Positions 12,992 through 44,797 of a stretch of DNA of 64,000 bases are shown here, in pieces (positions within the stretch are counted from its first letter, which is position 1; every line of letters starts with the position of its first letter). This stretch comes from Nemophila menziesii (taxonomy: Eukaryota; Streptophyta; Magnoliopsida; Boraginales; Hydrophyllaceae): positions 20,697,507 through 20,761,506 of the forward strand of contig JARWIR010000017.1 in assembly GCA_029959085.1 (NCBI GenBank), given 5' to 3'. The position numbers were made by a program, and so were the translations under genes. The notes under the pieces were generated by a model. That model made no database searches, was not told the DNA's origin, and saw only the letters and a program-made list of their open reading frames with translations.

Positions 12992-13545
12992 CTAAACGAA
13001 GTTATACTTTATATCAATGTGTTTGGTCTTGCTGTGATATATTGGATCTTTCACATAAGCCATTGCAGCTTGACTATCATAGTATATCGTAATTGAACTC
13101 CCACTATCACTAGAGAATCCTAAATGTTCAAAGAACCTTTTTAACCAAACAGCTTCTTGAACCGCAGCTGAGCAAGCTACAAATTCAGCTTCCATCGTTG
13201 ACAAAGCTACACAGGTTTGTTTCTTGCTACTCCAAGAAATTGCAAAATTATTCAACAAGAATACATAACCTGATGTGGATTTACGCCCACCTATATGGCT
13301 ATATCACCAGCCCAATTAGCGTCTGTATATCCTTTTAGACGTAATCTATCTCCGCGAAAGCATAAGGCATGATCTTTAGTGCCTTTTAGATATCTCAATA
13401 TCCTTTTCACAGCTTTCCAATGTTCTTGTCTAGGGTTCGATTAAAAATGACTAACTAAACCTACTGCATAACATATATCTGGTCTCGTACACATCATAAC
13501 ATACATAAGAGTTAAGACTACCAATGGCACTAGAATATGGTACTG
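12992..13545 (-). pseudogene. Copia RNase H relic
   Basis: The minus-strand frame 12992-13258 reads through [15 protein letters not shown] and [13 protein letters not shown] and ends at [13 protein letters not shown], the conserved C-terminal RNase H of Copia polyproteins. Upstream (13259-13545) the same protein continues in broken frames. The expected tail after the IDIKYHF motif is missing, so the 3' end of pol is truncated. Confidence 0.85.
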
Positions 13546-14460
13546 TTAACATTTATGTTTCTCTTTTGTAGTACTAGGACACATGTCGAGAGTTAAGTTT
13601 ATTCCCTTTTCTATAGGAGTGTCAATAGAATTGCACGTAGTCATACCAAAACGCTCCAGTACATTCATAATGTAAGGTTCTTGAGATAAAGATAATAGTC
13701 TTCTAGACCTATCTCTGTGAATCTTAACACCAAGAATATAATTTTCTTTTCCCATATTTTTCATATCGAATTGAGAAGCTATCCACTCCTTATTAGATTG
13801 AATTAACTCTTTATTATTCCCAGCTAATAGGATGTCATCCACATAAAGAGATAAAATTATGAAATTTTTCTTGGAACGTTTAATATAAACACAATGGTCT
13901 TCACTTATTATCTCAAATACATTTGACGAAATGAATTCATGAAATCTCAAATTCCACTGTCTCGAGGCTTGCTTAAGACCATAGATTGATTTCAACAATC
14001 TACATACTTTATTCTCTTAATCTTTTGCAACAAAACCCAAGGGTTGTTCCATGAAAATTACCTCTTCTAAATCTCCATTTAGAAATGCAGTTTTACCATC
14101 CATATGGTGCAACTCCAGATCGAAATGCGCCACAATAGCTAAAATAAGACATATTGAGGTAAATATAACAAGAGGAGAAAAAGTTTCCTCAATGTCTATT
14201 CCTTCCCGTTGAGTATAGCCTTTCTCTACAAAGCGAGCTTTGTACCTGTCAATGGAATTTTCAGGTTTCCTCTTTATTTTGAGAACCCATTTGTTCCCAA
14301 TCGCTTTACGTCCCTTTGGGAGATCAACCACTTCCCATACCTGGTTTTTCTTCATCGACTCCATTTTTTCTTCCACTGCTTTTCTCAATTCATTCTTAGT
14401 AGGACATGAAAGTGCTTCATTAACTGTTCGAGGTTCTTCTTCGTCTTGTGGAGTTATCAT
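13546..14460 (-). pseudogene. Copia reverse transcriptase relic
   Basis: Two frames, 14017-14460 and 13546-13998, together cover the Copia RT. The first has NQVWEVVDLPKGRKAIGNKW, the AIGNKWVLKIK strand, GIDIEETFSP and HHMDGKTAFLNGDL, where the usual H-x-MDV-KTAFL carries the first catalytic Asp. The second has KSIYGLKQASRQWN and the YVDDILLAG catalytic motif. They are separated by an in-frame stop. RT would copy the element RNA in the virus-like particle; this copy is dead. Confidence 0.9.
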
Positions 14461-14478
14461 AAAGACTTCTCCTTCGAT

Positions 14479-15740
14479 TTAAAATCGACGACGAGGAACT
14501 AAACCTCTAGCACTTCTTTTAAGTTGTGAATCTTGAGAAATAGGATTACTAGATGATGCAATGGTTTCTTCCGTCTCAAGATGTAGAGGAGTGTTCGTCT
14601 CTATTTCCTGAGTATGTGTTACCTCATCAGGTGTCACATTTGTTTGCATATCATCTTCCTGAATCTCATTTAATTCACATAAAATGGAATTTATGTCAAC
14701 CTCACCTCTGCTAGGACAATTATTCTCTAAGAATGTAACATCTCGTGACTCAATTTCAGTAAGACTCCCATCATTAATAAACATATATCCTTTAGAGTGA
14801 TCAGGGTATCTAATAAAGATACACTTCTTACCTCTTGGACCTAACTTCCCATACTTATGAGATAGATCATGAACATAGCCTGCTGACCCCCAAGGTCGCA
14901 AGTATGACAAGTTAGGTTTCTTTCATGTCCATAGTTCATAAGGAGTTGATGGAATATTATTTGTGGATACTCGGTTAAGTATATAACAGGCGGTAAGCAA
15001 GGCATCTCCCCAATAAGATATTTGAAGATTTGATTGTGCCATCATAGACCTAACCATTTCTATGAGTGTTCTATTCCTCCTTTCAGCCACACAATTCTGT
15101 TGTGGTGTTCTAGGAATCGTAAGCTGCCTTACTATCCCTTTTTCATCACACAATTCTTTAAACGGATCAAATAGATATTCACGTCCTCGATCAGTTCTTA
15201 GGGTTTTCACCTTCCTCTTTAACTGATTTTCCACTTCATTGATAAATGTCATAAAATATTTCAATGCTTCAGATTTGTGAGAAATCAGGTAGACATAACT
15301 AAAACTAGTGAAACCATCTATAAAAGTGATGAAATAACGTTCCCCACGTCTATTTGAACACTCATTGAGCCACAGATGTCTGAATGAATTACTTGTAATG
15401 GGTACTCGAATCGTTTAGCCTTTCCAAATAGTTTCCGTTTTGCTTTACATGCTAGACAATTTTCACAAGTTGGCAAGTTGAATTTAGTCAACGGACCCAA
15501 AAGGTTCGCTTTAGCCAACAAATATATACGGTCTTGTCCAATATGACCTAATCTAGCATGCCATACATTTTCTTCTACATTAGAATTACTAGAAGAAGTA
15601 TTAGTAGAAAAGCAACTACTTCTATAATAACTATTAAACGAGTTATCATCATCTTGTACAATTAAACCATGCGAAAAAAATCCAGAACCATAATACCTAG
15701 CATCATAATAGATATCTACTTGTTTGTTATGAAAATGCAT
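14479..15740 (-). pseudogene. Copia integrase relic
   Basis: Three frames in order on the minus strand. 15318-15740 contains the pre-integrase zinc-binding motif (VWHARLGHIG ... CENCLACK) and VIHSDICGSM. 14923-15264 contains the core with LRTDRGREY and TIPRTPQQNCVAERRNRT, where the normally invariant Gly after QQN is Cys. 14479-14910 contains the C-terminal part. Frame breaks fall between each pair. The reading order is integrase before reverse transcriptase, which defines Copia rather than Gypsy. Confidence 0.9.
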
Positions 15741-15785
15741 ATTAAAACCTAATACTAGAAGAACAGTGACCGATACTAAGTTCCG

Positions 15786-16130
15786 TCAAATGCCAGGTTC
15801 GTAACGTACATCATGAAGGTACAAGGTTTGACAACCTAGCAAGTTCAACTTGCAAGTGCCAACTCCTTTTACTTCAACTTTATTGTTGTCTCCTACATAT
15901 ATCCACCTTGTTCCCTCTGGAATCCGACGGTACTCTACATATGTCTCTCGGTCTTTGGCTACATGGTCTGTCGCTCCTGAATCCACAGTCCATAAAGGAT
16001 TAGAATTAGCTAGAAATACAGTACGGGCAAGATAAGTAAAATTACAAGAAGTAAATGACATTGCTACCTTTCTAGGCTCGTTGCACTCGCGAGCTAAGTG
16101 ATCCAATTTATCACAGTTAAAGCATTTCAT
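15786..16130 (-). pseudogene. Copia gag zinc knuckle and protease relic
   Basis: The frame opens with a CCHC knuckle, CFNCDKLDHLAREC (C-x2-C-x4-H-x4-C), and about 40 residues later has WTVDSGATDHV, the aspartic protease active-site loop. It matches the gag-protease junction of Copia elements. It is separated by stops from integrase downstream and gag upstream. Confidence 0.88.
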
Positions 16131-16925
16131 CTTACTCTTGTCTTTCTTCTTACGTAAACGTTTTCCCTTATTGTTACCACCCTTCTTGTTCTTCTTGGAA
16201 ACATGCTCATTTCCGTTCTTCTTCCCATTGTTCTTGCGCTTATTGCCAGAAACTTTGTGGGAACTTGACTCAGCAACATAAGCCTAACCCTGAAGCTTAA
16301 TTGCATCTAGACGTTCATCTTCCAATGTCACATGACGAGCAACATCATCAAAGGTTTTGATGTTGTCATTGTGAGTCAAGTTTATCTTTAAATGCTCCTA
16401 GTTATTTGGAAGAGATTGGATCACAGTTTGAACCTATTGTTCATCAGTAAGGCTATCACCTGTAGTCTTAAGTTCCCTAATCATGTTAGACATCTCTCGG
16501 AGATGTTGTTGCATGGTTTGATTAGGCTTCTTCATGTAAGTGTCAAACTTAATGGTCAATTGATGCAACTTAGTCACAGTCGTACCCCCATACTTCTCAT
16601 TAAGAGAATTCCACATCTCGTGAGCAGTGAGGTATCGTTGACATTCTTAGACAAGATCGTCATTCATGGAGCCTATCAGGATGCCTCTTGCAGTGGAATC
16701 TTTCTTTTTCCATTTCTCATAATCCTCCATGTCCCTTTTGTTTTAGTTGTGTTTCCTTCCTTAGGATGAGCCATGACATTGTTAATAGCCTCAAGAACAT
16801 CTTGCTCATCTAGAACATAATGTATCTTGAGCTTCCAAAGGTTATAGTTCTCACCATTCATCTTTTCTCCTTTGTTAAGATCAGCAATGATGGTTTTCGA
16901 TGTATTTTTCTCTAATAAAGTAAGA
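16131..16925 (-). pseudogene. Copia gag relic
   Basis: Frames 16676-16861 (MNGENYNLWKLKIHYVLDEQ) and 16434-16616 (MWNSLNEKYGG ... HLREMSNMIREL) are the UBN2-type gag core that coats the element RNA. In-frame codons upstream of the MNGENY methionine read SKTIIADLNKGEK and run to a stop near 16925, so the original start is lost. A Lys/Arg-rich stretch at about 16140-16260 leads into the zinc knuckle. Confidence 0.82.
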
Positions 16926-18018
16926 GATTCTCATTAGTAACAAATATTTATTTAATAACCTAATGCTATCAATGCAAATGGAATATATAAGAAAGATAAC
17001 AAAATAGGTGATAAAGAAAGTTCACTATGTTTCCAATCATGAACCGCCATATTTTGTTTGTCTTAGTCATTCAATCAATTTCATTAATTGCAAAAATAAG
17101 TTCTATTAGAACTCCCACTTACTCTAATATAAATAGAGAAAAATGTATAAAAATAAAGGACTTGTACATAAAATCAAAGAAACTAGTTGAATTCATATGT
17201 ATTTGAAATACTTGTTCTATAAGAAAATAATTTAATTAAAACAAATATTGCAATTCCTAACAAACAGGGATTAAACAAAATTAGAAAAACAAACCACTAA
17301 GCAAACTACCTATTGCAAGTCCTAACTAACATACGCTTTTCATATCCAAAACCTTAATTTAGGAATTGACTGCTCAAAGTTCACTTCCTCATAGAGTCTA
17401 ATTGGAAAATAATTATCAACATCAGTAGTTCGATAATGCATTCAACAGTTGCATTGGTCTGACTTAGTGGAACTATTGAAATGTTTCCACATGTGAGATT
17501 CAGTCAAAGCATAGACTAGCCACTCATATGTAGCTTGTCTTCCATGAACATAGTCCTCTGGAAAGTCATTCTCCCATAAGATTATGAGATCCCTTTGCAT
17601 CTCTCTGGCAAAGTATTATAAATAACTTCAACTTTGTGTCCTTCACATATGATATCACCCCAATTAATGACATCTTGAATCAACTTATTCACAACTACTA
17701 CATGTTGCACTAAAGTATGATTAGGTCTCTTCTTATATCAGAGTGCTTTGATACTGTTATTTAAAATTTGTTTTTGTCTCGGTGTCCTTGCAACTTTTGG
17801 TGTATGGACCCTTAATGCTCCATTTGATTTCTTACGTTCCTGTTGAGCCATCTGTACACTGTCAGTTGCTCAAGACTTGATGCTCGAGATCCCCTGGATC
17901 GTGTCCACACCATTTTTATACATATAGAAAAATTAAGAACCGTCAAAGATTAGCAAAAATTGATTGGAATTTTTTTCCAGAAATACAATCTATTTCCAAA
18001 AGTCGTTTATTTACAAAA
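16926..18018. other. Leader or flank of the Copia element, no gene seen
   Basis: A possible but poor tRNA-iMet primer binding site is visible on the minus strand at about 17744-17757 (cagtatcaaagc, two mismatches to TGGTATCAGAGC). It is nearly 900 bp from gag, much farther than normal. The minus strand at 17400-17740 has weakly gag-like codons full of stops. No LTR matching 12534-12990 was found here. Confidence 0.3.
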
Positions 18019-18080
18019 GGTGTAGGTAGCATATCTGGTTAGACTACTTGTCACTAGACTAGGGGTTTGACTCCCATAAC
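18019..18080 (+). other. tRNA-like segment (Pol III A and B boxes)
   Basis: tagcatatctgg at 18027-18038 fits the A box TRGYNNANNNGG, and ggtttgactcc at 18064-18074 fits the B box GGTTCGANTCC with one mismatch, at normal tRNA spacing. I could not fold a paired acceptor stem, so this is a tRNA relic or the head of a tRNA-derived SINE, not a working tRNA gene. Confidence 0.35.
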
Positions 18081-18356
18081 ATGCATTTCAGTTTTCTTAT
18101 ATAAAATAAAACGACCCAAAATTGAAACGAATTCGGCCCAAAAAAGATATATCATCGGGTAAGCCCAAAAGAAAAATCCATGCGTCCACTAGTGAAAAAC
18201 AAAATTAAAAATAATAGTCGACCAAATAAAAGAAACTGTGGACTAACATAATATACTTATGGGTTGAAATTCAACAATTACAAACCTAATATATATATCC
18301 AGTATATATCGTACAGATTACTAATTCTTCCTAGAAAAAAAATTTCTTTTTCTTTA

Positions 18357-21300
18357 CTAAACACGTTCGACAAAATAAATCCTTCGACAGTTTTTAAAAA
18401 AAATTAAACATGAACCGCAACAAGAATTCAACACATGAATCAACAAGAATTTAAATCAGGTAACATAGCTCTGATACAAATTGTTACCTATTAATTAAAT
18501 AGTTATGGTTTATCAGACAAACCTCTTACGCTACGGATTGATAATTCCTAATTTCCACTTTCTGATCGTGAATTTAATTACAAGAATTCAATTCTTTGTT
18601 TTCACCACCTAAGTGTCTGAGAGATATTGTTAATTGTATAAGGAAAGAGTTAAATTGATTTAGCGGGAAAAAGTTTGTTGTGTTTGTTGTTGTGTTTGGA
18701 AAGGAGAAGCAGACTCCTATTTATAGAGGGATAAGAGCGTTTCTTTATTAACTGATAATAAACCATCTCTCCACTATCTCGACTCTCTCAATCTCTCTTA
18801 GTGGGCAAGTTACCATTATAACTTCCTGACTAACTTCCCAAGCAGTACGTTCATGTCACCCCATCATGGGTGACATGGAATAAAATAATACTTAATATTT
18901 TATTGCTTTCAGAGATGATACAAATTATTGAGGTTGAGGATTGTGTTGGGGGGTGCTGTGAACGACATCAGTATTTTAATGGTTGGGGTGTCGCCATGAA
19001 CAACAATGTTGTTGAAGGAGGAATACTATCTAAACACGTTCGACAAAGAAAATCCTTAGACATTTTCCTTTTTAAAATTAAACATGAACCACACCAAGCA
19101 TTTAGAACATGAATTAGAAACAAGAATCTAAATCAGGTAACATAGCTCTGATACCAATTGTTACCTATTAATTAAATAGTTAAGGTGTACCAGACAAACC
19201 TCTTACGCAGCGATTGATAATTTCTGATTTCTACTTTCTGATCGTGAATTTAATCACAAGAATTTGATTCTTTGTTTTCACCACCTAAGTGTTTGAGAGA
19301 TATTGTTAAGTGTATGAGGAAATAGTTAAATTGATTTAGCGGAAAAAAGTTTGCTGTGTTTGTTGTTGTGTTTGGAGAGGAGAAGCAGACTCCTATTTAT
19401 AGAGGGATAAGAGTGTTGGTTTATTAACTGATAATAAACCATCTCTCCACTATCTCGACTCTCTCCATCTCTCTTAGTGGGAAAGTTACCATTGTAACTT
19501 TCTGACTAACTTCCCAAGCAGTAAGTTTATGTCAACCCATCATGGGCGACATTGAATAAAATTAATACTTAATATTTTATTTCTATCAGAGTTGATACGA
19601 ATTAGTGAGGTTGAGGATTGTTGGGGTGGTGCTGTGAACGACATCACTATTTCAATGGTTGGGGTGGCGCCGTGAACAACGATCTTGTTGAAGGAGAGAG
19701 GCTACGGGAGTTTATGTTTTGAGTTTGTAAGTTTTTAAGTGCCCTTTTAAAAAAAATTAAACATGAACCGCAACAAGAATTTAGCACATGAATCAGAACA
19801 AGAATTTAAATCAGGTAACATAGCTCTGATACTAATTGTTACCTATTAATTAAATAGTTAAGGTTATAAGACAAACCTTTTACACAGAGAATTGATATTT
19901 CTAATTTCTACTTTCCGATCGTGAATTTAATTACAAGAATTAAAATCTTTGTTCTCACCACCTAAGTATCTGAGAGATATTGTTAAGTATATGAGGAAAG
20001 ATTTAAATCGATTTAGCGGGAGAAAGTTTGTTGTGTTTGTTGTTGTGTTTGGAAAGGAGAAGCAGACTCCTATTTATAAAGGGGTAGGAGCGTTGGTTTA
20101 TTAACAGATAATAAACCATCTCTCTTAGTGGGACAGTTACCGTTGTAACTTCTTGACTAACTTCCCGAGCAGTACGATCATGTCACCCCATCATGGGTGA
20201 CATGGAATAAAATAATACTTAATATATTATTTCTTTCAGAGATGATACAAATTAGGGAGGTTGAGGATTGTGTTTGGGTGGTGTTGTGAACGACCTCAGT
20301 ATTTCAATGGTTGGGAGGCGCCGTGAACAACGATGTTGTTGAAGGAGAGAGGCTATCTAAACACGTTCGACAAAAAAATCCTTCGACAAATTTTTTTCTT
20401 TAAAATTAAACATGAACCGCAACAAGAATTTAGCACATGAATCAGAAACAAGAATTTAAATCAGGTAACATAGCGCTTATACCAATTGTTACCTATAAAT
20501 TAAATAGTTAAGGTTTATCAGAAAAACCTCTTACGCAGCGGATTGATAATTTCTTATTTCTGCTTTCTGATCATGAATTTAGTTATAAGAATTAAATTCT
20601 TTGTTTTCACCACATAAGTGTCTGAGAGATATTGTTAAGTGTTTGAGGAAAGAGTTAAAGTGATTTAGCGGGAGAAAGTTTGCTGTGTTTGGAGAGGAGA
20701 AGCAGACACCTATTTATAGAGGGATATGAGCGTTGGTTTATTAACTGATAATAAACTATCTCTCCACTATCTCGACTCTCTCCATCTCTCTTAGTGGGCA
20801 AGTTACATTGTAACTTCCTGACTAACTTCCCAAGCAGTGCGTTCATGTCACCCAATCATGAGTGACATGGAATAAAATAATACTTAATAGTTTATTTCTT
20901 TCAGAGATGATACAAATTAGTGAGGTTGAGGACTGTGTTGGGTGGTGCTGTGAAGGACATCAGTATTTCAATGATTGGGGTGGCGCTGTGAACAACGATG
21001 TTGTTGAAGGAGAGAGGCTACGTGAGATTATGTTTTAAGTTTGTAAGTTTTTAAGGTCCCTTTCTAAAAAAAATTATACATGAACCGGAAACAAGAATTT
21101 AACACATGAATCAGAAACAAGGATTTAAATTAGGTAACATAGCTCTGATACCAATTGTTACCTGATAATGAAATAGTTAAGGTTTATCAGACAAACCTCT
21201 TACACATCAGATTGATAATTTCTAATTTTTGCTTTCTGATCGTGAATTTAATTACAAGAATTAATTTCTTTGTTTTTACCACCTAAGTATCTGAGAGATA

Positions 21301-24300
21301 TTGTTAAGTGTATGAGAAAAGAGTTAAATTGATTTAGCGGGAGAAAGTTTGCTGTGTTTGTTGTTGTGTTTGGAGAGTAGAAGCAGACTCCTATTTGTAG
21401 AGGGATAGGAGCGTTGGTTTATTAATTGATAATAAACCATCTCTCCATTATCTCGATTCTCTCCATCTCTAATAGTGGGTAAGTTACCATTGTAACTTCC
21501 TGACTAACTTCCAAGCAGTACTTTCATGTCAACCCATCATGGGTGACATAGAATAAAATAATACTTAATATATTATTTCTTTCAGAGATGATACAAATTA
21601 GTGAGGTTGACGATTGTGTTAGGGTGGTGCTGTGAACGACATCAGTATTTCAATGGTTGGAGTGGCGCCGTGAACAACGATGTTGTTGAAGGAGAGAGGC
21701 TATATAAACACGCTCGACGAAAAAATCCTTCTACAGTTTTTTTAAAATTAAACATGAACCACAACAAGAATTTATCACATGAATCAGAAACAATAATTTA
21801 AATTAGGAAACATAGCTCTGATACCAATTGTTACCTATTAATTAAATAGTTAAGATTTATCAAACAAACCTCTTACACAGAGGATTGATAATTTCTGATT
21901 TTGGCTTTCTGATCATGAATTTAATTACAAGGATTAAATTATTTATTTTGACCACCTAAGTGTCTGAGAGATATTGTTAAGTGCTTGAGGAAAGAGTTAA
22001 ATAAATTTAGCGGGAGAAAGTTTGCTGTGTTTGGAGAGAAGAAGCAGACTCCTATTTATATAGGGATAGGAGCGTTGGTTTATTAATTGATAATAAACCA
22101 TTTCTCCATTATCTCGACTCTCTCCATCTCTAATAGTGGGCAAGTTACCATTGTAACTTCCTAACTAACTCCCCAAGCAGTACGTTCATGTCAACCCATC
22201 ATGGGTGACATGGAATAAAATAATACTTAATATTTTATTTCTTTCAGAGATGATACAATTTAGTGAGGTTGACGATTGTGTTGGGGTGGTGTTGTGAATG
22301 ACATCAGTATTTTAATGGTTTGGGTGGTGCCGTGAACAACGATGTTGTTGAAGGAGAGAGGCTGCGGGAGTTTATCTTTTAAGTTTGTATGTTTTTAACT
22401 GTCCTTTTAAAAAAAAATAAACATGAACCGCAACAAGAATTTAGCACATGAATCAGAAACAAGAATTTAAATAAGGTAATATAGTTCTGATACCAATTGT
22501 TACCTATTAATCAAATAGTTAAGGTTTATCAGGCAAACATATTACACAAAGGATTGATAATTTCTAATTTCTGCTTTCTGATCGTGAATTTAATTACAAG
22601 AATTAAATTCTTTGTTTTCACTGTCTAAGTGTCTCAGAGATATTTTTAAGTGTATGAGGAAAGAGTTAAATCGATTTAGCGGGAGAAAGCTTGTTGTGTT
22701 TATTGCTGTGATTGGAGAGGAGAATCAGATTCCTATTTATCGAGGGATAGGAGCGTTGGTTTATTAACTGATAATAAACCATCTCTCCACTATCTCGACT
22801 CTCTCCATCTCTCTTAGTGGCAAGTTACCATTGTAACTTCCTGACTAACTTCTCAAGCAGCACGTTCATGTCACCCCATCATGGGTGACATGGAATAAAA
22901 TAATACTTAATATTTTATTTCTTTCAGAGATGATACAAATTAGTGAGGTTGAGGATTGTGTTGGGGTGGTGCGATGAAGGACATCAGTATTTCAATGGTT
23001 GGGGTGGCGCCGTGAACAACAATGTTGTTGAAGGAGAGAGACTATATAAACACGTTCGACAAAAAAAATCCTTCTACAGTTTTTTTTAAAAATTAAACAT
23101 GAACCACAACAAGAATTTATCACATGAATCAGAAACAATAATTTAAATTAGGTAACATAGCTCTGATACCAATTGTTACCGATTAATTAAATAGTTAAGG
23201 TTTATCAAACAAACCTCTTACACAGCAGATTGATAATTTTTGATTTCGGCTTTCTGATCATTAATTTAATTACAAAAATTAAATTATTTGTTTTGACCAC
23301 ATAAGTGTCTGAGAGATATTGTTAAGTGTTTGAGGAAAGAGTTAAATTGATTTAACGGGAGAAAGTTTGCTGTATTTGTTGTTGTGTTTGGAGAGGAGAA
23401 GCAGACTCATATTTATAGAGGGATAGGAGCGTTGGTTTATTAACTGATAATAAATCATCTCTCCACTATCTCGACTCTCTCCATCTCTCTTAGCGGGCAA
23501 GTTACCTTTGTAACTTCTTGACTAACTTCCCAAGCAGTACGTTCATGTCACCCCATCATGGGTGACATGGAATAAAATAATACTTAATATTTTATTTCTT
23601 TCAGAGATGATACAATTTAGTGAGGTTGAGGATTGTGTTGGCATGGTGCTGTGAACGACATCAGTATTTCAATGATTGGGGTGGAGCTGTGAACAACGAT
23701 GTTGTTGAAGGAGAGAGGCTACGGGAGTTTATGTTTTAAGTTTTTAAGTTTTTAAGTGCCCTTTTTAAAAAAAAATTAAACATGTACTGCAACAAGAATT
23801 TAGCACATGAATTAGAAACAAGAATCTAAATCAGGTAACATAGCTCTGATACCAATTGTTACCTATTAATTAAATAATTAAGGTTTATCAAACAAACCTC
23901 TTACACAGCAGATTGATAATTTCTAATTTTTGCTTTCTGATAGTGAATTTAATTACAAGAATTAAATTCTTTGTTTTCACCACCTAAGTGTTTGAGAGAT
24001 ATTGGTAAGTGTATGAGGAAAGAGTTAAATTGATTTAGCGGGAGAAAGTTTGCTCTGTTTGCTGTTGTGTTTGGAGAGGAGAAGCAGACTCCTATTTATA
24101 GAGGGATATGAGCATTGGTTTATTAACTCATAATAAACCATATCTCCACTATCTCGACTCTCTCCATCTCTCTTAGTGGGCAAGTTACCCTTGTAACTTC
24201 CTGACTAACTTCCCAAGCAGTACGTTCATGTCACTTAATCATAGGTGACATGAAATAAAAGAATACTTAATATTTTATATCTTTCAGAGATGATACACAT

Positions 24301-24430
24301 TAGTTAGGTTGAGGATTCTGTTGGGGTGGTGCTGTGAACGACATCAGTATTTCAATGGTTGGGGTGACGCCGTGAACAACGAATTTGTTGAAGGAGAGAG
24401 GCTACGAGAGTTTATGTTTTAAGTTAAGTA
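18357..24430 (-). repeat. Tandem array of nine ~670-bp LTR/PBS units
   Basis: Nine head-to-tail copies, each marked on the plus strand by gctctgatacca followed by ttgttacc. The TGTTACC starts are at 18482, 19159, 19837, 20487, 21156, 21829, 22498, 23174 and 23857, so the spacing is 650-683 bp. On the minus strand each junction reads GGTAACA-AT-TGGTATCAGAGC: an LTR 3' end plus a tRNA-iMet primer binding site. Each unit also has CTATAAATAGGAGTC on the minus strand, a TATA box where LTR U3 should have one. Two linker variants follow the segment gaaggagagaggct: A (aaacacgttcgacaaa) and B (gggagtttatgtttt). Their order from the left is A A B A B A B A B B. No protein domain is present, so the unit is best read as a TRIM-like or LTR-derived retroelement amplified in tandem. 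The 5' end of the LTR is not resolved. Confidence 0.85.
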
Positions 24431-25242
24431 ACTTTTTATTCTATGATAAGTATATATATATATAGTAGGATATTTCAGAAAGTTTTTAATTTTGTAAGTG
24501 CGTCAAAAAAAGAAATTTGTAAGTAATTGATTTGAAATCTTTCTTAAATATAATGTTGGCTTAAGGCTTCTTCAATATCAGGGCGAGTCCATAATGATAC
24601 TCCCTCTGTTCCAATTCAAATTGTTCACATAGCATTTCACACAAATTAAGAAAAGTTATTACTAAACTCAACTTTACAAAAATACCCTTAATAAATTTGT
24701 TATTTTTCCAATACAAGACCCTATTTATGAGGAAATGTAATACTGTTGGAGCCAAAATTTATGGTAGAAGTCTAACATCCCTCTGTTGTGATAGAAGTCT
24801 CTCCACATAGCATTGGAGCCAAAAAAATTTGCTCGTACAATGCAAAACCAAAATGGAGCCAACATTTAAAAATCAAATTTTAAAGCTAAAATTTCTAACC
24901 ACCAACTATCTATAAATTGTTTATGCTGGATTAAAATTCTTACTCTACATAATATTTCATTATCAAAATATATTTACAAAATAGCTTTTACTGGGTTTGA
25001 ATTAAATTTTTCACGTTTTAATTTTGATCATTAATCCAACTTCTTCAGAAGAATCAATATCCAATACAGGTATTTATATATCTTATTTAATTTTAATTTT
25101 TTAATACTATAAGTAATTTATTAAAATTGTCTGAAATGATTTTATTTTTGTTTTTATTTGATTCGGTTATATTTTCTTTTTCTGCTGATAATTTACATTT
25201 AATTTAATAAAGTGTTTTAATTAATTTATATATAATAGAATA

Positions 25243-27343: not shown

Positions 27344-27519
27344 TGTTAGCCTCACCTTGTTTTTATTCCCGTTTTAATATTCGACAAATCATCATTTAAA
27401 CTAAAATTCATTTGGTATCACTTTTAAAGGTTTTCCAAAACCCCTCATTAGATTAGTTGTGTTTAATTCCTTGATCTTAAGCTTGAGCTTTAAAAGAACA
27501 GTATCACGGTACACCGGAC

Positions 27520-27835
27520 AAGAGCTGCGGTACACCGCAGTACCACGGACCAAAGGCGCGGTGCATAGGATAGCCCGATCAGTAAGCTAAGTAAATGTGC
27601 GGTACACCGGACTAAGGCGCGGTACACCGAACGGAGGCACGGACCAGGAACGCGGTGCATAGGCTAGTCTGACCAGTAAGCTAAGAAAATGTGCGGTACA
27701 CCGGACTAAGGCGCGGTACACCGGACTGAGGAACGGACCAGGAACACGGTGCATAGGATAGCCCGTCAGTTTACTTTGAAATCAAGACGAGTGATTTTGC
27801 GGTGCACCGGACCATACCCGCGGTACACCGCATGA
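27520..27835 (+). repeat. Subrepeats built on cggtacaccg in the U3 region
   Basis: The palindrome-like motif cggtacaccg and its variants recur about eight times. A longer unit of 94 bp (aaatgtgcggtacaccggac, at 27593 and 27687) is repeated about 2.5 times. The zone is far more GC-rich than its surroundings. Such upstream repeats in LTRs often act as enhancers; that role is inferred here. Confidence 0.8.
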
Positions 27836-27938
27836 AAGGGTTTCTGCACTATTACTAGAGGACAAAGCTTATATCCGTTGGAGGTAAAATAGATCCGTTA
27901 GATACAAGCCTTTTTGACCGTTGGGAGCTCATTTTAGC

Positions 27939-27945
27939 TATAAAT
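27939..27945 (+). promoter_or_regulatory. TATA box of the SIRE-like LTR
   Basis: gcTATAAATtgaagctc lies just downstream of the subrepeat zone, and a leader-like sequence follows. It is the best TATA match in the LTR and is absent from the deleted 3' LTR. Confidence 0.6.
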
Positions 27946-28602
27946 TGAAGCTCATTCAAGACACAACTAAAGCCTTCCATCTACCAATCTTAAGAGCAAT
28001 TAATATTATCATTCAAGAAGGTTTCAAAGGAGCATTCAAGTCATATTCATTCTCAAGCTACATAATTTATATCCACTCATTTAGGAGTTTAGTTACAAAG
28101 CTTTTATAAGCACCCCTAAACACTTTTCCTTTCCTCTTAGTTCTTGTAATAGATTAAGAGAGTAGTGTGAGCATAGGTTTTATGCTTGGTTCCTTGTGTT
28201 GGTGATAACACAAGTGTATTTCCTTCAAGGTTTTGAAGTGGTTGTAAAGGGTTTGTAATCTCACCCGGTTTAAGAGTTACGAAGATTAGTTGAGAATCTT
28301 GCAAATCATAAGGAGGCTTCCTTAGGTAGTGGATGTAGGGAAACCGAACCACTATACATCGTTGTGTATCATTTTCTATCCCTTCACTCTTTACATTTCC
28401 GCACTCTATATGCTTGATAAAATGCTTACATGAATAGTTTGATAATATTGTCTTTTAGGATTATCTAGTTCTTAACTATTTAGTTTGCTAAAACAATAGG
28501 ATTCAAATTAGCTTTTAATTTTATTTACTTGAAATAAAATTAGCCGATTAATTTCCATTGTCCTATTCAACCCCTCTTCTAGGACGCATATAGAATATCA
28601 AT

Positions 28603-28614
28603 TGGTATCAGAGC
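28603..28614 (+). other. Primer binding site (tRNA-iMet)
   Basis: TGGTATCAGAGC, the perfect complement of the 3' end of initiator tRNA-Met, two bases after the LTR. It is the site used by nearly all plant Copia elements. Confidence 0.95.
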
Positions 28615-28655
28615 CTCACTCTATTGTACTTAATCGTTTCTAGAGTTAATACGAT

Positions 28656-29063
28656 ATGGATTCTAATCAACCGGAAGGTTCATGTTCTACTAGACCTCCA
28701 CTTTTTGTAGGAAAAGATTACTTTGGATGGAAAAAGAAAATGGAGATTCATGTCAAAGGAATTGATTACTTTTTGTGGCTTGCTATCAAGAAGGGTCCTT
28801 ACATTCCTTATGTTAATGGTAGTAAAACGGAGGTGAAAGATGAAGATGATTACAATGATCAAGACATAGCTAAACTCACAAAAAACAACAAAGCTATGAA
28901 CATACTCATAAATGGGTTAAGTGTCACGGAATATGCTAGAGTTTGTGAATGTAATTCGGCTCATGAAATGTGGCAACTCTTGGAGCTATCATATCAAGGA
29001 ACGGAAGATATCAAAGAAACTAAGATTGGTCTTTTTATCACCAAGTATGAGCTATTTCGTATG
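28656..29063 (+). pseudogene. gag N-terminal half, SIRE-like element
   Basis: ATG at 28656, 42 bp after the primer binding site. The frame reads RPPLFVGKDYFGWKKKMEIH and continues through NALS-like gag codons to YELFRM, where the hAT-derived fragment interrupts it and a stop follows at 29070. This is the UBN2-type gag domain that forms the particle. The product can no longer be completed because the rest of gag is 518 bp away in another frame. Confidence 0.88.
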
Positions 29064-29581
29064 GTTTGTTAATTTCTCGAGCCGAGCCGAGCCGAGCTCA
29101 AATTTAGACGAGCCGGATCGAGCCGAGCTCAAATTTAAACAAGCCGAGCCCGAGCTTCCAATCATCCAAATCAGAAATGTTAGAACTTGTTTGTTTAACT
29201 TATTGAATAATCTTTTTTAAAGTCGAGCACGAGTTGCTCATGAACAATTTCTTTTTTATGGTTGAAATGAGACTTTCATGAGTGTGTGGTATGAAAATAT
29301 GAAACATAACACTAATGAAAAAATAAATGACTAAAGAAATTAAAGATATCCAATTAGATATTGAAGGTTAATAATATATTTATAAGTAGATAATTTATTT
29401 TTATTTATACTTCATAATTTTAAACGAGCTCACGAGCCGAGCTCGAGCAGGCTCGTTTACGTATCGAGCTTAAAATGGAGTTTGAGCTTGAGCTTGTTTA
29501 CATTCGAGCCGATCTCGAACGAGCTTTTCTCCGAGCCGAGCTCGAGCTGCTCGCGAGCGGCTTGGTTCATTTACAGCCCTA
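29064..29581. mobile_element. hAT-like non-autonomous fragment inside gag
   Basis: The interrupting block is rich in gagccgagc/gctcggctc repeats at both edges (29078-29155 in one orientation, 29425-29560 in both). It ends GGTTCATTTACAGCCCTA, the inverse of the hAT-type end TAGGGCTGTAAATGAACC. The matching left end TAGGGC is missing and no clean 8-bp duplication is visible, so the left boundary is truncated or rearranged. It splits the gag coding sequence and is therefore younger than the retrotransposon. Confidence 0.75.
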
Positions 29582-30945
29582 CTATGCATCAAAGATTTTC
29601 TAACATTGTCAACACCTTGAAGACTCTTGGTCAAGAGTACACCAACAAAGAACAATGCCGAAAAATCTTATTTGCTCTTCCAAAGAAATACAAATCAAAG
29701 ATCAACTCTATAAGAGACACTAAAGATCTTTCAAAAATGACGGTTCATGAACTCATTTGCAACCTCATGACGGAAGAGCTTGTGCTTGAAGAAGAAAAGA
29801 TAAGAGATGATGAGGAGAAGAAGATTAAGAAATCCATTGCCTTCCATGCCTTGAGTACCAAGTTGAAAGAACGAAAATAAAGGAAGGAAAGTGAAGAAGA
29901 AGAGAACTCACATGAAGAAGAAACTAGTGAAGATGAAGGAGTAGCTATGTTGGCAAGAGATATGAAAAAATTCATGAGATACAAACGATTTGTCAAGAAA
30001 GGAAGTTCTTCCTCACCCTATAAGAAGAATGTTAGAGCTATCAAACAAGATGAACCCACTTGCTATCATTGCAAGAAAGTTGGTCACATCAAAAATTATT
30101 GCCCTCTTCTTCAAAAGGAGAAACCTAAGAGAGCAATGCATGCTAATATCACTTGGGATACTCAAAATTCGGATGAAGAAGAAAGTGATAATGAAAATGT
30201 TAATCTTGTTGCTTTTATGGGAGAACTTGAAAATGATGAAGATGCTTCGTCGGATGATGATACCGGTTCAACTCACTTTGCCTTTATGGCAAATCATGAT
30301 GAGGTAACTCCTAAATCTAGACTCTCTTTATCTAATGATGATGCTAGTGAACAAGATATTCATGAGGCATTTGATTCTCTCTACAATGATTTTTAAAACT
30401 CTATTGAAACAAACAAAGTTTTAACAAAAGATTTAGAATTTGAGAAAAATAGAACTAAAGAGGTTTTGAAAGCTTTGGAAGATTGTCAAAATCTTTGTGA
30501 TGAGTGTATAGATGAAAATGAGAAACTTCATCTTATTGAGAAAAATCTTTTGGAAGAAAAATCTTTGTTGGAGAAAAAGATTGTTGATCAAAATGCTATT
30601 ATTTTAAAATTTACAAGTGGGCAAGAAAACTTGGATTTGATTTTAGGTTCTCAAAAAATGGCTTTTGAAAAAAGTGGTGTTGGATATGATCCATTCACTA
30701 AACAAAAACCCTTGAAAAATGTTTTTGTAAAATCAAAAATTTCAAATGCAATTCCATCTTCTTCAAAATCTTCTATCACATGCACCTATTGTGAAAAACT
30801 TGGTCATGATGCATCTCATTGTTATTATCGTAAATTATTGGATTTGGGATCTCTTGTGCCACTTTGGAAAAGGCCTATATGGGCTATAAAAAGAAAATCC
30901 ACTAACCCTCATGGACCCAAACCAAATTGGGTACCTAAAGCCTAA
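29582..30945 (+). pseudogene. gag C-terminal half with two zinc knuckles
   Basis: gag resumes with MHQRFSNIVNTLKTLGQEYT and runs in one frame to 30945 with two in-frame stops (29878-29880 and 30394-30396). It has knuckle 1, CYHCKKVGHIKNYC (about 30061), a long acidic Asp/Glu-rich stretch, a Glu/Lys/Leu-rich likely coiled coil (about 30440-30640), and knuckle 2, CTYCEKLGHDASHC (about 30781). Two knuckles separated by an acidic coiled region fit SIRE-type gag. The frame ends at VPKA, just before pol, which lies in a different frame. Confidence 0.85.
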
Positions 30946-30965
30946 ATTATTTTTGTGTGTAGGGA

Positions 30966-33900
30966 TTGAGCATCAAGAAGCAAAATATATGGCTCCTTGA
31001 TAGTGGATGCTCAAGACATATGACCGGGAACCCATCATTATTTACACGTTTATATAAAACAAAAGGTGATAGAGTTACTTTTGCCGACAATACTAAAAAA
31101 CGCGTTTTGGATAAAGGTAACATCGGTAATATGAATTCTTTACTTATCTCTAATGTTTTACTTGTTGAGGGTCTATCTTTTAACTTGCTTAGTATAAGTC
31201 AACTTTGTGATGTTGGTTATAGTGTTAAATTTGAAGCATCTAGATGCATTATTTTCAAAAATGATGAGTTAGATACTATGTTTATTGCAAAAAGATCGGA
31301 TAATGTTTTTGTAGTTGATCTTGAGAGTATTATGTGTCAACGTATTAAATGCTTATCCGTGGTAAATGATAGTTGGCTTTGGCATAGACGTTTAGGACAT
31401 GCTAGTATGGATTTGATTTCAAAATTGTCTAGAAAAAATCTTGTCGTTGGTTTGCCTATTTATAAGTTTGATAAAGATAAATTATGTGATGCATGTCAAC
31501 TTGGTAAACAACATCTTTCATCTTTTAAATCCATAAATAAGGTCATCACCGTTAGGCCACTTCAATTATTGCATATGGATCTTTTTGGTCCCGTTGATGT
31601 CACTAGTCTAGGAGGATCTAGATATGTCTTTGTTGTTGTTGATGATTACACTAGATATACATGGGTGATGTTCCTTGCTTTAAAAAGTCATGCCTTCAAT
31701 GAATTTGCAAAACTTTGTAGAAAGGTGCAAAATGAGAAAGGCTACTCTATTACATGCATTCGTAGTGATAATGGTAGTGAATATGTGAACTCTCCTTTTG
31801 TGCATTTTTGTGATGAATTTGGGATTGATCATAATTTTTCGGCTCCTAGAACTCCCCAACAAAATAGGGTAGTGGAAAGGAAAAACCGAACTCTACAAGA
31901 AATGGCTAGAACAATGCTAAAAGAACATAGCTTGCCTACATACTTTTGGGGTGAAGCCGTTCATACGGCTTGTTATGTGTTAAATAGAGTTCTAATTAGA
32001 CCCCTTATTAAGAAAACCCCTTATGAGCTTTGGAATGGTAGACCACCAACTATTGCTTATTTTCGTGTTTTTGAGTGCAAATGTTTTATCTTAAACACTA
32101 GGGACTATTTGGGAAAATTTGATGCTAAATCGGATGAAGGTATTTTTCTTGGTTATTCCACTAAGGGAAAAGCCTATCGCATTTTCAATAAACGTACTCG
32201 TACCATTGAAGAATCTATGCATGTTGACTTTGATGAGACTAACCCTTTTTGTATCAAGAAAGTAGTAGATGTTGATTTACATGAAGATACTCCACAAGAT
32301 CAACCCTTAGAATCTCCTACTCAAGAATTAAACTCTCATGATGAATCTCTTAAGGAAAATGGTCAACTCTCAAATGAAACTAGTACGGATTTACCAAAGT
32401 GTTGGAAAAATATCAAAGATCACCCAAGTGAATTAATTCTAGGTGATCCAAAAGAAGGTGTTACCACTCGTTCTCGTATTATTGCTCTATGTGCTCATCA
32501 AGCATTCTTTTCTCAAATTGAGCCCAAGAATATTAAAGAAGCCTTGCTAGATGATCATTGGATAAACGCTATGCATGAGGAATTAAATCAATTTGAGCGT
32601 AGTAAAGTTTGGACATTAATTGAGAAACCAATTGGCCCTACTATTATTGGCACTAAGTGGGTATTTCGCAACAAGCTAGATGACACTGGTATTATCACTA
32701 GAAATAAAGCAAGGTTAGTTGCTCAAGGATACAATCAAGAAGAAGGTATTGATTTCGATGAAACTTTTGCTCCGGTAGCTAGACTTGAATCTATTCGTAT
32801 GCTACTTGCTTTTGCTTGTTATATGAATTTTAAACTTTACCAAATGGATGTCAAAAGTGCTTTTTTAAATGGTTTTATAGATGAAAAGGTTTTTGTTAAA
32901 CAACCACCGGGTTTTGAAGATCCAAAATTTCCAAATCATGTTTTCAAACTTTCAAAAGCTTTATATGGTTTAAAACAAGCACCTCATGCTTGGTATGAAC
33001 GTTTAAGCAAATTTTTGTTAGATGATGGTTTTAAATGAGGAAATATTGACTCCACTTTATTTATAAAAAGGTCTTCAAAAGATATCCTTCTTGTTCAAAT
33101 TTATGTGGATGATATAATATTTGGTGCTACTAATGAAAATCTTTGTGAGAATTTTTCTAAAAGCATGCATAAGGAATTTGAGATGAGCATGATGGGAGAA
33201 TTGAATTAGTTTCTTGGTCTTCAAATCAAGCAAATGAAGGATGGCATCTTTGTAAATCAAGCCAAATACACAAAAGAATTGATCAAAAAATTTGGACTTG
33301 AAGATGCAAAGGAAATCGGAACTCCAATGAGCACATCCACAAAATTAGACAAAGATGAAGATGGTAAGGATGTTGATGAGAAAGCATCTCGAGGTATGAT
33401 TGGTAGCTTACTTTATTTAACCGCTTCTAGGCCCGATATTATGTTCCCCGTGTGTCTTTGTGCTAGATTTCAATCCTCTCCTAAGGAATCTCATCTTAGT
33501 GCCGTTAAGCGTATTTTTAGGTATTTGAAAGGAACCCTAAGTCTAGGACTTTCGTACCCTAGATTTACCACTTTTGAACTAATAGGTTATTCGGATGCCG
33601 ATTATGCCAGTTGTAGACTTGATAGGAAGAGTACTAGTGGAAGTTGCCAATTCTTAGGTCAATCCCTTGTTTCTTGGTCTAGTAGAAAACAAAATAGTGT
33701 TGCTTTATCCACGGCCGAAGCCGAATATGTTGCGGCCGGAAATTGTGTGACTCAAATTTTTTGGATGAAACAAACCTTACTAGATATTGGCCTAGAGTAT
33801 GATTGTGTTCCCATTCGTTGTGATAACACTAGTGCTATCAATCTTACCAAAAATCCTATTCAACACTCTAGAACGAAACACATAGAAATCCGTCATCATT

Positions 33901-34043
33901 TTATCCGTGATCACACTCAAAAAGGGGATATTGTACTTGAATTTGTCACTTCGGAAAATCAACTAGCCGATATCTTTACGAAACCTCTACCCCAAGATCT
34001 TTTTGAGAAAATTCGTTGTGAGATTGGCATGCAAATTCTCTAA
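30966..34043 (+). pseudogene. Copia pol: protease, integrase, RT, RNase H
   Basis: One frame from about 30966 to 34043 with only two stops, TGA at 33036-33038 and TAG at 33207-33209. The first codon is TTG, so no ATG start is implied. In order: protease WLLDSGCSRHMTG; integrase zinc site WHRRLGHAS with CDACQLGKQ; HMDLFGPV; core IRSDNGSEYV and RTPQQNRVVERKNRTL; RT with ARLVAQGYNQEEGIDFDETF and QMDVKSAFLNG; catalytic YVDDIIFGAT, which falls between the two stops; RNase H with GYSDADYASC, ALSTAEAEYVAAGNC and HSRTKHIEIRHHFI. The end at CEIGMQIL is intact. Both stops could come from C-to-T or G-to-A changes typical of methylated plant DNA. Confidence 0.93.
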
Positions 34044-34383
34044 CCTTCTTATCATGCCATTATTGTTTAGTGCTTTTTGTGTATATTATCTTGTTGCTAA
34101 TATTTTCTTGATGTTATAGGGTCCTTGAAGCTTCTAATTGTTATCCATTTACTTCTTTAGCCTTTGTTTTTACTCAAAATGTATTTTGACCCCTTAAAAT
34201 TTTCAAAAATCGTATCATTGGTTCTTTTTGTTGTTGACAAAGGGGGAGAAATTTTAGTTAAACTTTTTCAAATGCATTTTGTGAGGGGGAGTTTTTATAA
34301 AAACTCTAGTGATTAGGTTGAGGGGGAGTTTTTGATTAAAACTTTATCTAAGGCATCTTCAAAAGTTTATGATTTGTCAAACA

Positions 34384-34399
34384 TCAAAAAGGGGAAGAT
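34384..34399 (+). other. Polypurine tract of the SIRE-like element
   Basis: caaaaaggggaagatt lies directly before the 3' LTR start TGTTAGCC. Upstream there are extra GGGGGAG tracts near 34247, 34283 and 34321. It primes plus-strand DNA synthesis. Confidence 0.85.
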
Positions 34400-34980
34400 T
34401 GTTAGCCTCACCTTGTTTTTATTCCCGTTTTAATATTCGACAAATCATCATTTAAACTAAAATTCATTTGGTATCACTTTTAAAGGTTTTCCAAAACCCC
34501 TCATTAGATTAGTTGTGTTTAATTCCTTGATCTTAAGCTTGAGCTTCAAAAGAACAGTATCGCGGTACACCGGACAAGAGCTGTTTAACACAAGTGTATT
34601 TCCTTCAAGGTTTTGAAGTGGTTGTAAAGGGTTTGTAATCTCACCCGGTTTAAGAGTTACGAAGATTAGTTGAGAATCTTGCAAATCCTAAGGAGGCTTC
34701 CTTAGGTAGTGGATGTAGGGAAACCGAACCACTATACATCGTTGTGTATCGTTTTCTATCCCTTCACTCTTTACATTTCCGCACTCTATATGCTTGATAA
34801 AATGCTTACATGAATAGTTTGATAATATTGTCTTTTAGGATTATCTAGTTCTTAACTATTTAGTTTGCTAAAATAATAGGATTCAAATTAGCTTTTAATT
34901 TTATTTACTTGAAATAAAATTAGCCGATTAATTTCCATTGTCCTATTCAACCCCCCTTCTAGGACGCATATAGAATATCA
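34400..34980 (+). repeat. 3' LTR with a 678-bp internal deletion (581 bp)
   Basis: 34400-34583 matches 27344-27527, and 34586-34980 matches 28206-28600. The bases in between (27528-28205 of the 5' LTR), holding the GC-rich subrepeats, the TATA box and the start of the transcript, are missing and replaced by two filler T (34584-34585). Such a filler suggests end joining after a double-strand break. Confidence 0.92.
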
Positions 34981-43345: not shown

Positions 43346-44797
43346 TTAGGACTCCCCAGCCACACAACCCAAGGAAACACCGTCCCTCTCTAGTGTATGA
43401 ACCAGTGATTCTAAATTCTTGTCAGAAGAACCACCTTCTTGCATAGTTTCCCTTGCTAAAACTTTCCATTTCATCGCATTCCTTCTCAATTCTAAGCCTC
43501 TTACTTCACCCTCCATTACCATCTCTATACAATTTTTTATCTCATCGCTTTCTACTATGCCATTTTTGTTTGGTGTCACCCTAACCCCTATTTTCCAGAT
43601 ATCTTCGATCAACTTTGCATTAGTCCCTTGATCTGACCATTGAGGAAAAGCAACCACAGGAATGCCACAAACCATGCTCTCCAACGTAGAATTCCATCCA
43701 CAATGTGTCACGAAACATCCCAAAGATGAATGTGTTAGAACCTCAAGTTGTGAACACCACTCTACTATCATTCCTTTTTCTTCCAATTCGTCTAGGCAAC
43801 TCAACTTATCCTCTTCCTTTTGTTCTTCACCATTTTTATTCGGTCTTATCACCCACAAGAATGGTCTTCCAGTGTCCAACAACCCTCTTGCAATCTCTTC
43901 TAGTTGCTCCTTCTGCAGATTCAACAAACTCCCAAAGGATATGTAAACAACTGAAGAGTCAGGCTTTGAGTTTAACCACTCGGCACAATCTTTTGATTTT
44001 TCAAAAAGATCACCAGAGAACGAAGTATCTGAAGGATCTCTACCATTCAAGAAAACTGATGGAATCAATGGTCCAACAGGTATTAAGTTGTATTTTTCAA
44101 TTGCTTTGAGTTCTTCAGGCTCAAGTGCATCAAACGTGTTCACTAATACCTTCGGATTTGCTTCTGCATCGAGTATATCAAACTGTTCCCTAAACGTGTG
44201 CACTCCAATACCAGATCCAGATAGAGATTCCCCGCTACAAGGAAGTAAAAAGGAGGGCATGTCACGTTTAGAGAGTATCGGCAGCCCAGGTAAGTGAATA
44301 GACCAATTGGGGTTTTCACAATTTGTTAAAATATCATTCTCAGAGCCATTGAAGTAATAGTAGTACACATCAAAAACAGTAGCTGGTTGAATCCAAAGAA
44401 GAGCAGAAGGAATGTGAAATTCACGCACAACTTCAGCCGCCCACGGAACGAAAAGAGTGTAGACAAGAGAAGTTATTGGGCGACCTTTTTCAGCACTTTT
44501 GACAATGATATCTCTCAAAGTTTCCGAGCCACGAGTCTTCATCTCAGCCATGTAGACCTTGCCATCATCACTTCCATCGGAAAAGCTTGCAAAGTTTAAT
44601 CCGTTAATCACGCCTGCTGAGTTTGACATGCGCCTGTGGGCAGAAACAGTCGTCATAAATGTAACTTCTACGCCCATTCTGATAAGCTTCTTGGCGAATT
44701 CAAGAGAAGGATTAATGTGGCCTTGAGCTGGAAACGTTATTTGAATGACATGGTGAGATTGCACCATGGCGGCAACTTTTGAAACTAATTCAGACAT
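43346..44797 (-). CDS. UDP-glycosyltransferase, UGT75-like (UGT-A)
   Basis: 483 aa, single exon, normal length for plant family-1 UGTs, which move glucose from UDP-glucose onto small hydrophobic acceptors in the cytosol. The N-terminal acceptor domain has FPAQGHINPS with the catalytic His at H27 and WIQPATVFDVYYYYFNG at 135-151. The C-terminal donor domain holds the 44-residue PSPG box at 347-390, from WCSQLEVLTHSSLGCF through the HCGWNS core to a final Gln (Q390), which usually goes with UDP-glucose preference. YTLFVPWAAEV replaces the common catalytic-partner Asp region, as I recall for UGT75 members. These motifs suggest UGT75, the group with flavonoid, crocetin, auxin/ABA-type ester and anthocyanin enzymes; the substrate cannot be read from sequence. 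A second ATG is at codon 11. The closest relative here is UGT-B. No breaks seen. Confidence 0.95.
   Translation of the reverse strand: MSELVSKVAAMVQSHHVIQITFPAQGHINPSLEFAKKLIRMGVEVTFMTTVSAHRRMSNSAGVINGLNFASFSDGSDDGKVYMAEMKTRGSETLRDIIVKSAEKGRPITSLVYTLFVPWAAEVVREFHIPSALLWIQPATVFDVYYYYFNGSENDILTNCENPNWSIHLPGLPILSKRDMPSFLLPCSGESLSGSGIGVHTFREQFDILDAEANPKVLVNTFDALEPEELKAIEKYNLIPVGPLIPSVFLNGRDPSDTSFSGDLFEKSKDCAEWLNSKPDSSVVYISFGSLLNLQKEQLEEIARGLLDTGRPFLWVIRPNKNGEEQKEEDKLSCLDELEEKGMIVEWCSQLEVLTHSSLGCFVTHCGWNSTLESMVCGIPVVAFPQWSDQGTNAKLIEDIWKIGVRVTPNKNGIVESDEIKNCIEMVMEGEVRGLELRRNAMKWKVLARETMQEGGSSDKNLESLVHTLERDGVSLGCVAGES

Follow-up and report, generated by a model that had tools for sequence, protein, structure and literature searches.

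The DNA analysed here (the window) is a 64,000-nt stretch of Nemophila menziesii, positions 20,697,507 to 20,761,506 of the forward strand of contig JARWIR010000017.1 in the assembly GCA_029959085.1, which comprises 1.517 Gb in 361 contigs. Between positions 18357 and 24430 the window carries a tandem array of long terminal repeats (LTRs) of a copia retrotransposon, next to the decayed body of that element, and we consider it very probable that the array arose by local duplication, via end-joining, of the element's 5' end together with the adjoining host DNA. Ten linkers of two types were found, at 18359 (A), 19032 (A), 19705 (B), 20359 (A), 21021 (B), 21706 (A), 22365 (B), 23048 (A), 23722 (B) and 24405 (B), and their order from left to right is therefore A A B A B A B A B B. 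They delimit nine head-to-tail units (u1 to u9, the first from 18359) of 654-685 bp each, all on the minus strand. Both the linker order and the nine units of about 670 bp in one direction had been read correctly in the original prediction, made from the letters of the sequence. The full-length identity among the nine units is 86.3-93.2%, and when the window was searched with the array, nothing related to it turned up elsewhere in the window. The array is far beyond chance, and because the units differ to this degree, assembly duplication of a single unit would not explain it.

Each unit consists of about 117 bp of host DNA, the 5' LTR, a primer binding site (PBS) and about 110 bp of leader, and the same host segment precedes every LTR in the array. 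The predicted LTR, PBS-like and TATA-like sequences are thus present in every unit, but the LTR is whole (402-430 bp) and not an LTR end alone. The features of the array and its surroundings are as follows (coordinates are those of the window).

12995..18356, minus strand: parent copia body with leader, gag and pol in pieces (family similarity, Pfam)
18357..18481, minus strand: native PBS and leader beyond the body-nearest LTR, with linker A in its original context (alignment to loci L019, L021 and L027)
18482..18911, minus strand: LTR copy 1, nearest the body; PBS changed
19032..19080, minus strand: A spacer (others at 20359, 21706 and 23048), about 40 nt of extra leader plus host flank; junction j1, TAG and short filler
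19159..19588, minus strand: LTR copy 2; PBS at 19145-19156
19589..19704, minus strand: example of the host segment (about 117 bp, upstream of the LTR); no match in 20 family loci
19705..19760, minus strand: B spacer (others at 21021, 22365 and 23722), leader T/A run plus about 40 nt of extra host flank; junction j2, A-run microhomology
19837..20238, minus strand: LTR copy 3; PBS changed, 26-bp deletion
20487..20903, minus strand: LTR copy 4; PBS changed
21156..21584, minus strand: LTR copy 5; TATA changed
21829..22246, minus strand: LTR copy 6
22498..22926, minus strand: LTR copy 7; TATA and PBS changed
23174..23603, minus strand: LTR copy 8
23857..24286, minus strand: LTR copy 9, outermost, adjoining the native host flank
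24287..24594, minus strand: native host DNA preceding the 5' LTR; holds linker B in its original place at 24405-24425 (colinearity with locus L031)

A unit-sized query of the assembly revealed the family at no fewer than 51 places (the best 40 of 1,238 candidates were scored), and its anatomy was read from 20 genome copies with flanks, chosen as the top matches to a unit. Most matches across these copies start and stop at the same few points, and the true family LTR is about 430 bp long, TGAAAG...GTAACA in element orientation, which is the minus strand in the window. In 5' copies ATTGGTATCAGAGC directly follows the LTR, and a purine tract such as GTGGGAGAA precedes the LTR at the 7 of the 20 loci where it resembles a 3' LTR (L009, L012, L017, L018, L020, L023 and L028); L010 is an apparent lone LTR flanked by two ATAAT. 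The genome copies thus have the TG...CA ends, the PBS after the 5' LTR and the polypurine tract before the 3' LTR by which LTR retrotransposons are recognised. A first anatomy, in which the LTR ran from TGTTACCT to AGGTAACA and the PBS stood alone between LTRs in the manner of a two-LTR circle primer site, was given up, since the genome copies show TGAAAG...GTAACA and TGTTACCT is leader. Searches of viral contigs with two patterns, and of bacterial and archaeal genome contigs with one pattern, gave no match.

To the left of the array, window positions 12995-18066 (minus strand) match internal regions of the same family at 87-93% in long stretches. Pfam domains were found there on the minus strand in separate open pieces, namely, from 5' to 3', zf-CCHC with Pol_BBD, gag_pre-integrs, rve, SH3_retrovirus and RVT_2 (in two parts); gag and pol domains are both present and the integrase lies ahead of the reverse transcriptase, which is the Ty1/copia order. 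The coding region is fragmented, its pieces being 147-165 aa long. The family similarity ends at 12995, and neither the remainder of the window nor the 20 kb to its left yielded another LTR, so that the 3' end of the parent element is gone. The array is the 5' end of a single copia element that has lost its 3' end. The nine units had been likened to tandem TRIM (terminal-repeat retrotransposon in miniature) arrays, a class to which they do not belong: their LTR is that of a copia family with coding elements, and a decayed gag-pol region adjoins them.

The two linkers are not two versions of one sequence; they proved to be non-homologous, one from the leader and the other from the host flank. 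The leader nearest the body aligns through linker A and position 18357 to L021 (82%) and L019 (80%), and its alignment to L027 (83%) covers the stretches to either side of linker A. With the A stretch alone, BLAST matched L021 at 89% over 37 bases and L019 at 76% over 33. Linker A is thus extra retrotransposon leader, and the left edge of the array is accordingly no edge in the element. For linker B, the genome was queried with the host segment, B and the start of the leader. All 25 candidates were scored: ten are rows of the array, one lies on C35, twelve lie on C110 (61.9-62.8 Mb) and two match the leader only. At the C35 locus (L031) the host segment, B and the right flank to about 24499 are colinear with the window (24313-24499 there), and neither L031 nor the three C110 loci read contain a match to the LTR. 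As these LTR-free relatives show, linker B is extra host flank. The relatives at C35 and in the C110 cluster cover the host segment save for about 26-28 bp beside the LTR, which are presumably host DNA as well. Beyond about 24595 the flanking DNA belongs to a different dispersed repeat. An insertion of 51 bp in the right flank, followed by the tail of B, had been considered (0 of 500 shuffles scored as high) and was rejected, as the C35 locus shows this stretch to be native flank. The twelve C110 copies are 76-77% like the array's host segment and are spread over about 0.95 Mb.

The native order, in element orientation, is accordingly host flank, B, u, A, body, where u stands for the 117 bp of host DNA, the LTR, the PBS and the leader. 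In spacer A the leader after GTGTTTAG is joined to host TAGCC through a short filler, whereas in spacer B the T/A run of the leader is joined to the host at an A-run common to both sides. Small changes aside, junctions j1 and j2 each have one form throughout the array. Because A is extra leader and B is extra host flank, the two mark the endpoints of two overlapping tandem duplications.

The host segment also bears on a different origin, in which the array is a tandem TRIM array or an ordinary concatemer of LTR-internal-LTR form produced by template switching or by recombination between LTRs. Units of LTR and PBS, arranged head to tail and lacking coding domains, are the form described for tandemly arrayed TRIMs (TA-TRIMs) and Cassandra elements (PMC4717578; PMC7215508), and longer tandem units do occur in the family, as at L037 (C100:5621500-5631400), where the spacing is 7,293 bp at 99.7% identity with one LTR per unit in the stretch read. 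Against this, the DNA before the LTR (host segment from LTR start to linker, two units tested) matches no internal sequence in the 20 family loci and contains no purine tract, its relatives lie at LTR-free loci, and the array has host flank at one end and the leader of its own element at the other. Because of the host segment we regard this explanation as refuted, and hence as very improbable, unless that segment is shown to be part of the internal domain in other copies. According to the parts of Gao et al. (2016, PMC4717578) that describe them, TA-TRIMs comprise 129 subfamilies in 35 of 43 genomes and, like the present array, consist of tandem LTR units without coding domains; in them a TRIM internal region separates the LTRs and target duplications are shown, whereas here the spacer is leader plus host DNA. 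A TA-TRIM has an internal domain with PBS and polypurine tract and is bounded by LTRs. The spacer of the array holds the PBS, leader and host DNA with no purine tract, and the array passes into host flank beyond linker B on one side and into its own leader on the other. Long Cassandra arrays share with it the 12-nt TGGTATCAGAGC, which stands in the published search pattern (Kalendar et al. 2020, PMC7215508), and differ, as far as that paper's description of them extends, in belonging to a family with 5S-like LTRs and no coding domains, in having a unit of LTR plus internal domain, and in forming arrays in many species.

The relationships among the units were then compared with the A/B order. 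Had the units been amplified as a higher-order repeat, units two steps apart should be closer than neighbours, and this expectation of the original prediction failed: the core identity outside the linkers is 91.0% at lag 1 and 91.3% at lag 2, and in the left part next to the linker the values are 89.6% and 90.7%. Units with the same left linker are 91.0% identical and those with different ones 90.9%, a difference that 47 of 126 relabelings equal or exceed; grouping by the right linker gives 91.25% against 90.74% (5 of 126 relabelings as high), a weak class signal. Between the inner classes u2, u4, u6, u8 and u3, u5, u7 there is no fixed difference in columns 50-685 of the 688, and the 21 fixed class columns are confined to the linker (1-49) and the junction (686 and 688), so that the A/B signal is limited to the roughly 50 columns at the linker. 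The mean Kimura (K80) distance between units outside the linker is 0.097 (36 pairs, 0.070-0.116). Substitution rates of 1.3e-8 and 7e-9 give unit ages of 3.7 and 6.9 million years (My), which does not accord with the young satellite that had been proposed.

Among 34 LTRs the nine of the array form one clade (support 98/90; 99% of bootstrap trees), and they have a common origin. The clade is star-like, with end branches of 0.031-0.056 and a stem of 0.0087, and the units diverged nearly simultaneously. Because the informative sites (48) exceed the means of simulated star trees (19-39 under four rate models), the tree is near-star and not a perfect star. The star-like clade and the lack of fixed class columns indicate either that the array was built within a short fraction of its age or that homogenisation kept its units alike up to then. 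Units u6 and u8 have six derived sites in common; exchange at a later stage could account for a tract that they share, most of it on the left, and for a right-hand tract shared by u5 and u6.

These data also bear on the view that the array is a higher-order satellite, with A and B as diverged monomer types amplified as dimers in a process that is ongoing or young. The order A(AB)4B is what such a satellite would show, and the u6/u8 tract around linker A and the left part, together with the right-linker signal (5 in 126), points the same way. However, A and B are the non-homologous ends of a duplicated segment, no fixed class difference exists in columns 50-685, the units differ by about 9%, and the spacer query found this array alone in the genome (the search skips very common words), which also disposes of a genome-wide satellite. 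We therefore give a higher-order satellite little credence.

It had further been proposed that all nine promoters and primer sites are intact. The 12-nt TGGTATCAGAGC, which we take to be complementary to initiator tRNA-Met, is exact in five of the nine PBSs (u2, u5, u6, u8 and u9), the TATA sequence TATAAATA is kept in seven units and lost in u5 and u7, and both are kept in four of the nine. Divergence is evenly spread over the unit (0.033-0.084 per 40-column block), without a dip at the TATA or the PBS, and shows no sign of selection for promoters or primer sites. The transition rates are 0.096 at CG, 0.093 at CHG, 0.040 at CHH and 0.012 at A/T sites. These rates and the even divergence fit a long period of methylation without selection. 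That the locus might be a functional one, with nine same-direction LTR promoters driving the downstream body or small RNAs, is suggested by the common orientation and by the seven retained TATA sequences; it appears extremely doubtful given the absence of a trough at either site, the transitions that are highest at CG and CHG as in silenced methylated DNA, and the broken downstream body.

Duplications at the LTR-leader boundary were also seen at other loci of the family. L015 and L016 (C158) carry two copies, 1,394 and 1,342 bp long and head to tail, of leader, LTR and about 830 bp of upstream DNA, which matches no other family locus searched; the two loci are copies of one event (94.5% alike). 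With its duplicated leader, LTR and upstream DNA, the C158 locus shares the architecture of the array, which supports an origin by boundary duplication. L011 contains a 515-bp duplication of the leader and part of the LTR, and L040, a selected case chosen for its two motif hits 105 bp apart, a 107-bp duplication across the LTR end and PBS. In all, there are four seemingly independent boundary duplications, namely this array, the C158:14.5 Mb pair, C13:25.67 Mb and C158:6.70 Mb (107 bp). Among the first 20 loci the 5' LTR is duplicated at L011, L015 and L016. It is duplicated in none of eight further family 5' LTRs taken in list order, and general recurrence was accordingly abandoned; two of the eight (L045 and L048) have a direct repeat elsewhere in the leader or flank. 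Direct repeats of at least 60 bp away from the LTR occur at L013, L015, L016, L024, L040, L045 and L048.

In L011, L013, L026 and L027 the leader repeats the LTR end in inverted form around the PBS (AGGTAACA, PBS, TGTTACCT), so that the primer site could sit in a hairpin loop. This inverted pattern occurs exactly at 157 places in the genome and the reversed pattern at none, but it is not universal, as L021 and L022 keep 4 and 5 of the 8 letters. Among 100 of the 157 places that were listed, only the L040 pair, besides the array, is closer than 3 kb; the listing misses changed motifs such as those of L011, L015 and L016. That the LTR-PBS-leader boundary of the family seeds tandem repeats is a speculative idea, and an improbable one, weakened as it is by the eight unselected loci, none with a duplicated LTR and two with a direct repeat elsewhere. 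If it were true, new insertions would nucleate proto-satellites able to carry host DNA. At C100:5822097-5840688 three motif hits lie about 9,280 bp apart, one of which was read; this spacing and that at L037 may represent ordinary or recent tandem full-length elements.

Taken in sequence, the proposed origin would run as follows. A single copia element inserted on the minus strand, and soon after, the DNA across its 5' insertion boundary would have been tandemly duplicated at least twice by end-joining. Duplication A would have spanned the DNA between the leader position at A and GTAGCC in the host, giving spacer A, and duplication B the DNA between the T/A run of the leader and a host site about 40 bp further out, giving spacer B; the product would have been B-u-B-u-A-u-A beside the body. 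Growth of the inner two-unit block B-u-A-u from one copy to four would have followed, through unequal exchange or a circle that was copied and reinserted, to give nine LTRs. The observed order, B u [B u A u]x4 A, corresponds to the three-copy product in which the inner block occurs four times. The element also lost its 3' end, and the units would have diverged through C-to-T decay, along with local conversion in places (u6/u8 and u5/u6). The succession of the two duplications, and the expansion by exchange or circle, are what we infer. Of the two-unit block that had been predicted, this much stands: it is the simplest route to A B A B A B A B in the inner spacers, while the core identity lacks an A/B period.

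In one variant, most units would have been made in a single step, a two-unit circle (B-u-A-u) having formed after the first duplications, been copied by rolling circle and been reinserted by homology. The star-like divergence without fixed class sites and the exact repetition of the two-unit block are consistent with it; nothing separates such a one-step circle from a few quick unequal exchanges, and the spacer query of the genome found no stray circle insert elsewhere. We hold this variant to be possible, though unlikely.

Several observations weigh against the proposed origin. The strict alternation of the eight inner spacers, which only 2 of the 70 random orders with four of each would show, is modest evidence for a two-unit block. 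The excess of informative sites over simulated star trees counts here as well, and homogenisation that ended about 4-7 My ago would equally yield a star tree. Part of linker A is absent from L027, the L019 alignment is gappy past linker A, and the 26-28 bp adjoining the LTR have no match outside the array. The copy in the window has lost the 3' LTR and 3' flank that would carry the second half of a target-site duplication, and the lack of duplicated LTRs at the eight list-order loci has to be added. These points notwithstanding, we consider boundary duplication by end-joining to be strongly favoured.

The closest known case is that of the maize repeats CRM1TR and CRM4TR, described by Sharma, Wolfgruber and Presting (2013, PMC3648361). 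Their tandem monomers consist of the LTR and the adjoining untranslated region (UTR) of one retrotransposon family and average 696 nt for CRM1TR at locus I; illegitimate recombination was proposed as the start, and the end variants EA and EB were described. The repeats occupy few local loci, and their amplification began at least about 4 and 1 My ago. CRM1TR has 187 full-length monomers, at loci in the centromere or pericentromere. Like CRM1TR, the array has monomers of similar size that span the LTR/UTR junction, lie head to tail and show two types of illegitimate junction. The CRM repeats, as described there, are wholly derived from a Ty3/gypsy element, and the authors' model is one of internal deletions giving LTR-UTR~LTR, whereas the present array is copia, carries host flank in each of its nine units and has the parent body joined in register. 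Because its units contain host flank, its founding step differs from that of CRM and would be a duplication across the insertion boundary. The Sobo satellite of wild potato (as PMC3648361 describes it) likewise mixes LTR sequence with genomic DNA in its monomer; it has a gypsy LTR, a 4.7-kb monomer and a length of about 360 kb, whereas the array is short, copia and still attached to its parent. Satellites derived from parts of retrotransposons are documented (PMC7004042). A limited literature search surfaced no LTR array with host flank, which does not show that none is in print.

Elsewhere in the window, another copia element lies at 27344-34980; its two LTRs are about 99% alike, except that the 3' LTR lacks 678 bp (27528-28205) in which most of a 94-bp GC-rich minisatellite (27507-27765) is contained. 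At 39789-42184 a sequence of about 825 bp is present in three direct copies (about 81-82% alike), which also hold inverted repeats of about 150 bp, and a 680-codon open frame with hAT transposase domains lies at 5333-7375. Two intronless-looking UDP-glycosyltransferase frames, 43346-44803 and 59075-60514, are 76% alike in DNA; the best protein matches of the former are at about 66%, many of them named UGT75C1-like, with various asterids among the sources.

The array is neither a new mobile element nor a working multi-promoter gene, and may offer a view of how satellite DNA begins. The origin of tandem repeats from retrotransposons has often been argued from arrays detached from their parent. 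In this case the body of the parent, the flanking host DNA and the two junction types remain in register, so that the founding step can be read almost directly, and it reads as an end-joined duplication across the insertion boundary and not as an internal deletion or a reverse-transcription concatemer. The host segment in every unit is the mark that separates these routes, and it could be sought in other satellites derived from LTRs.

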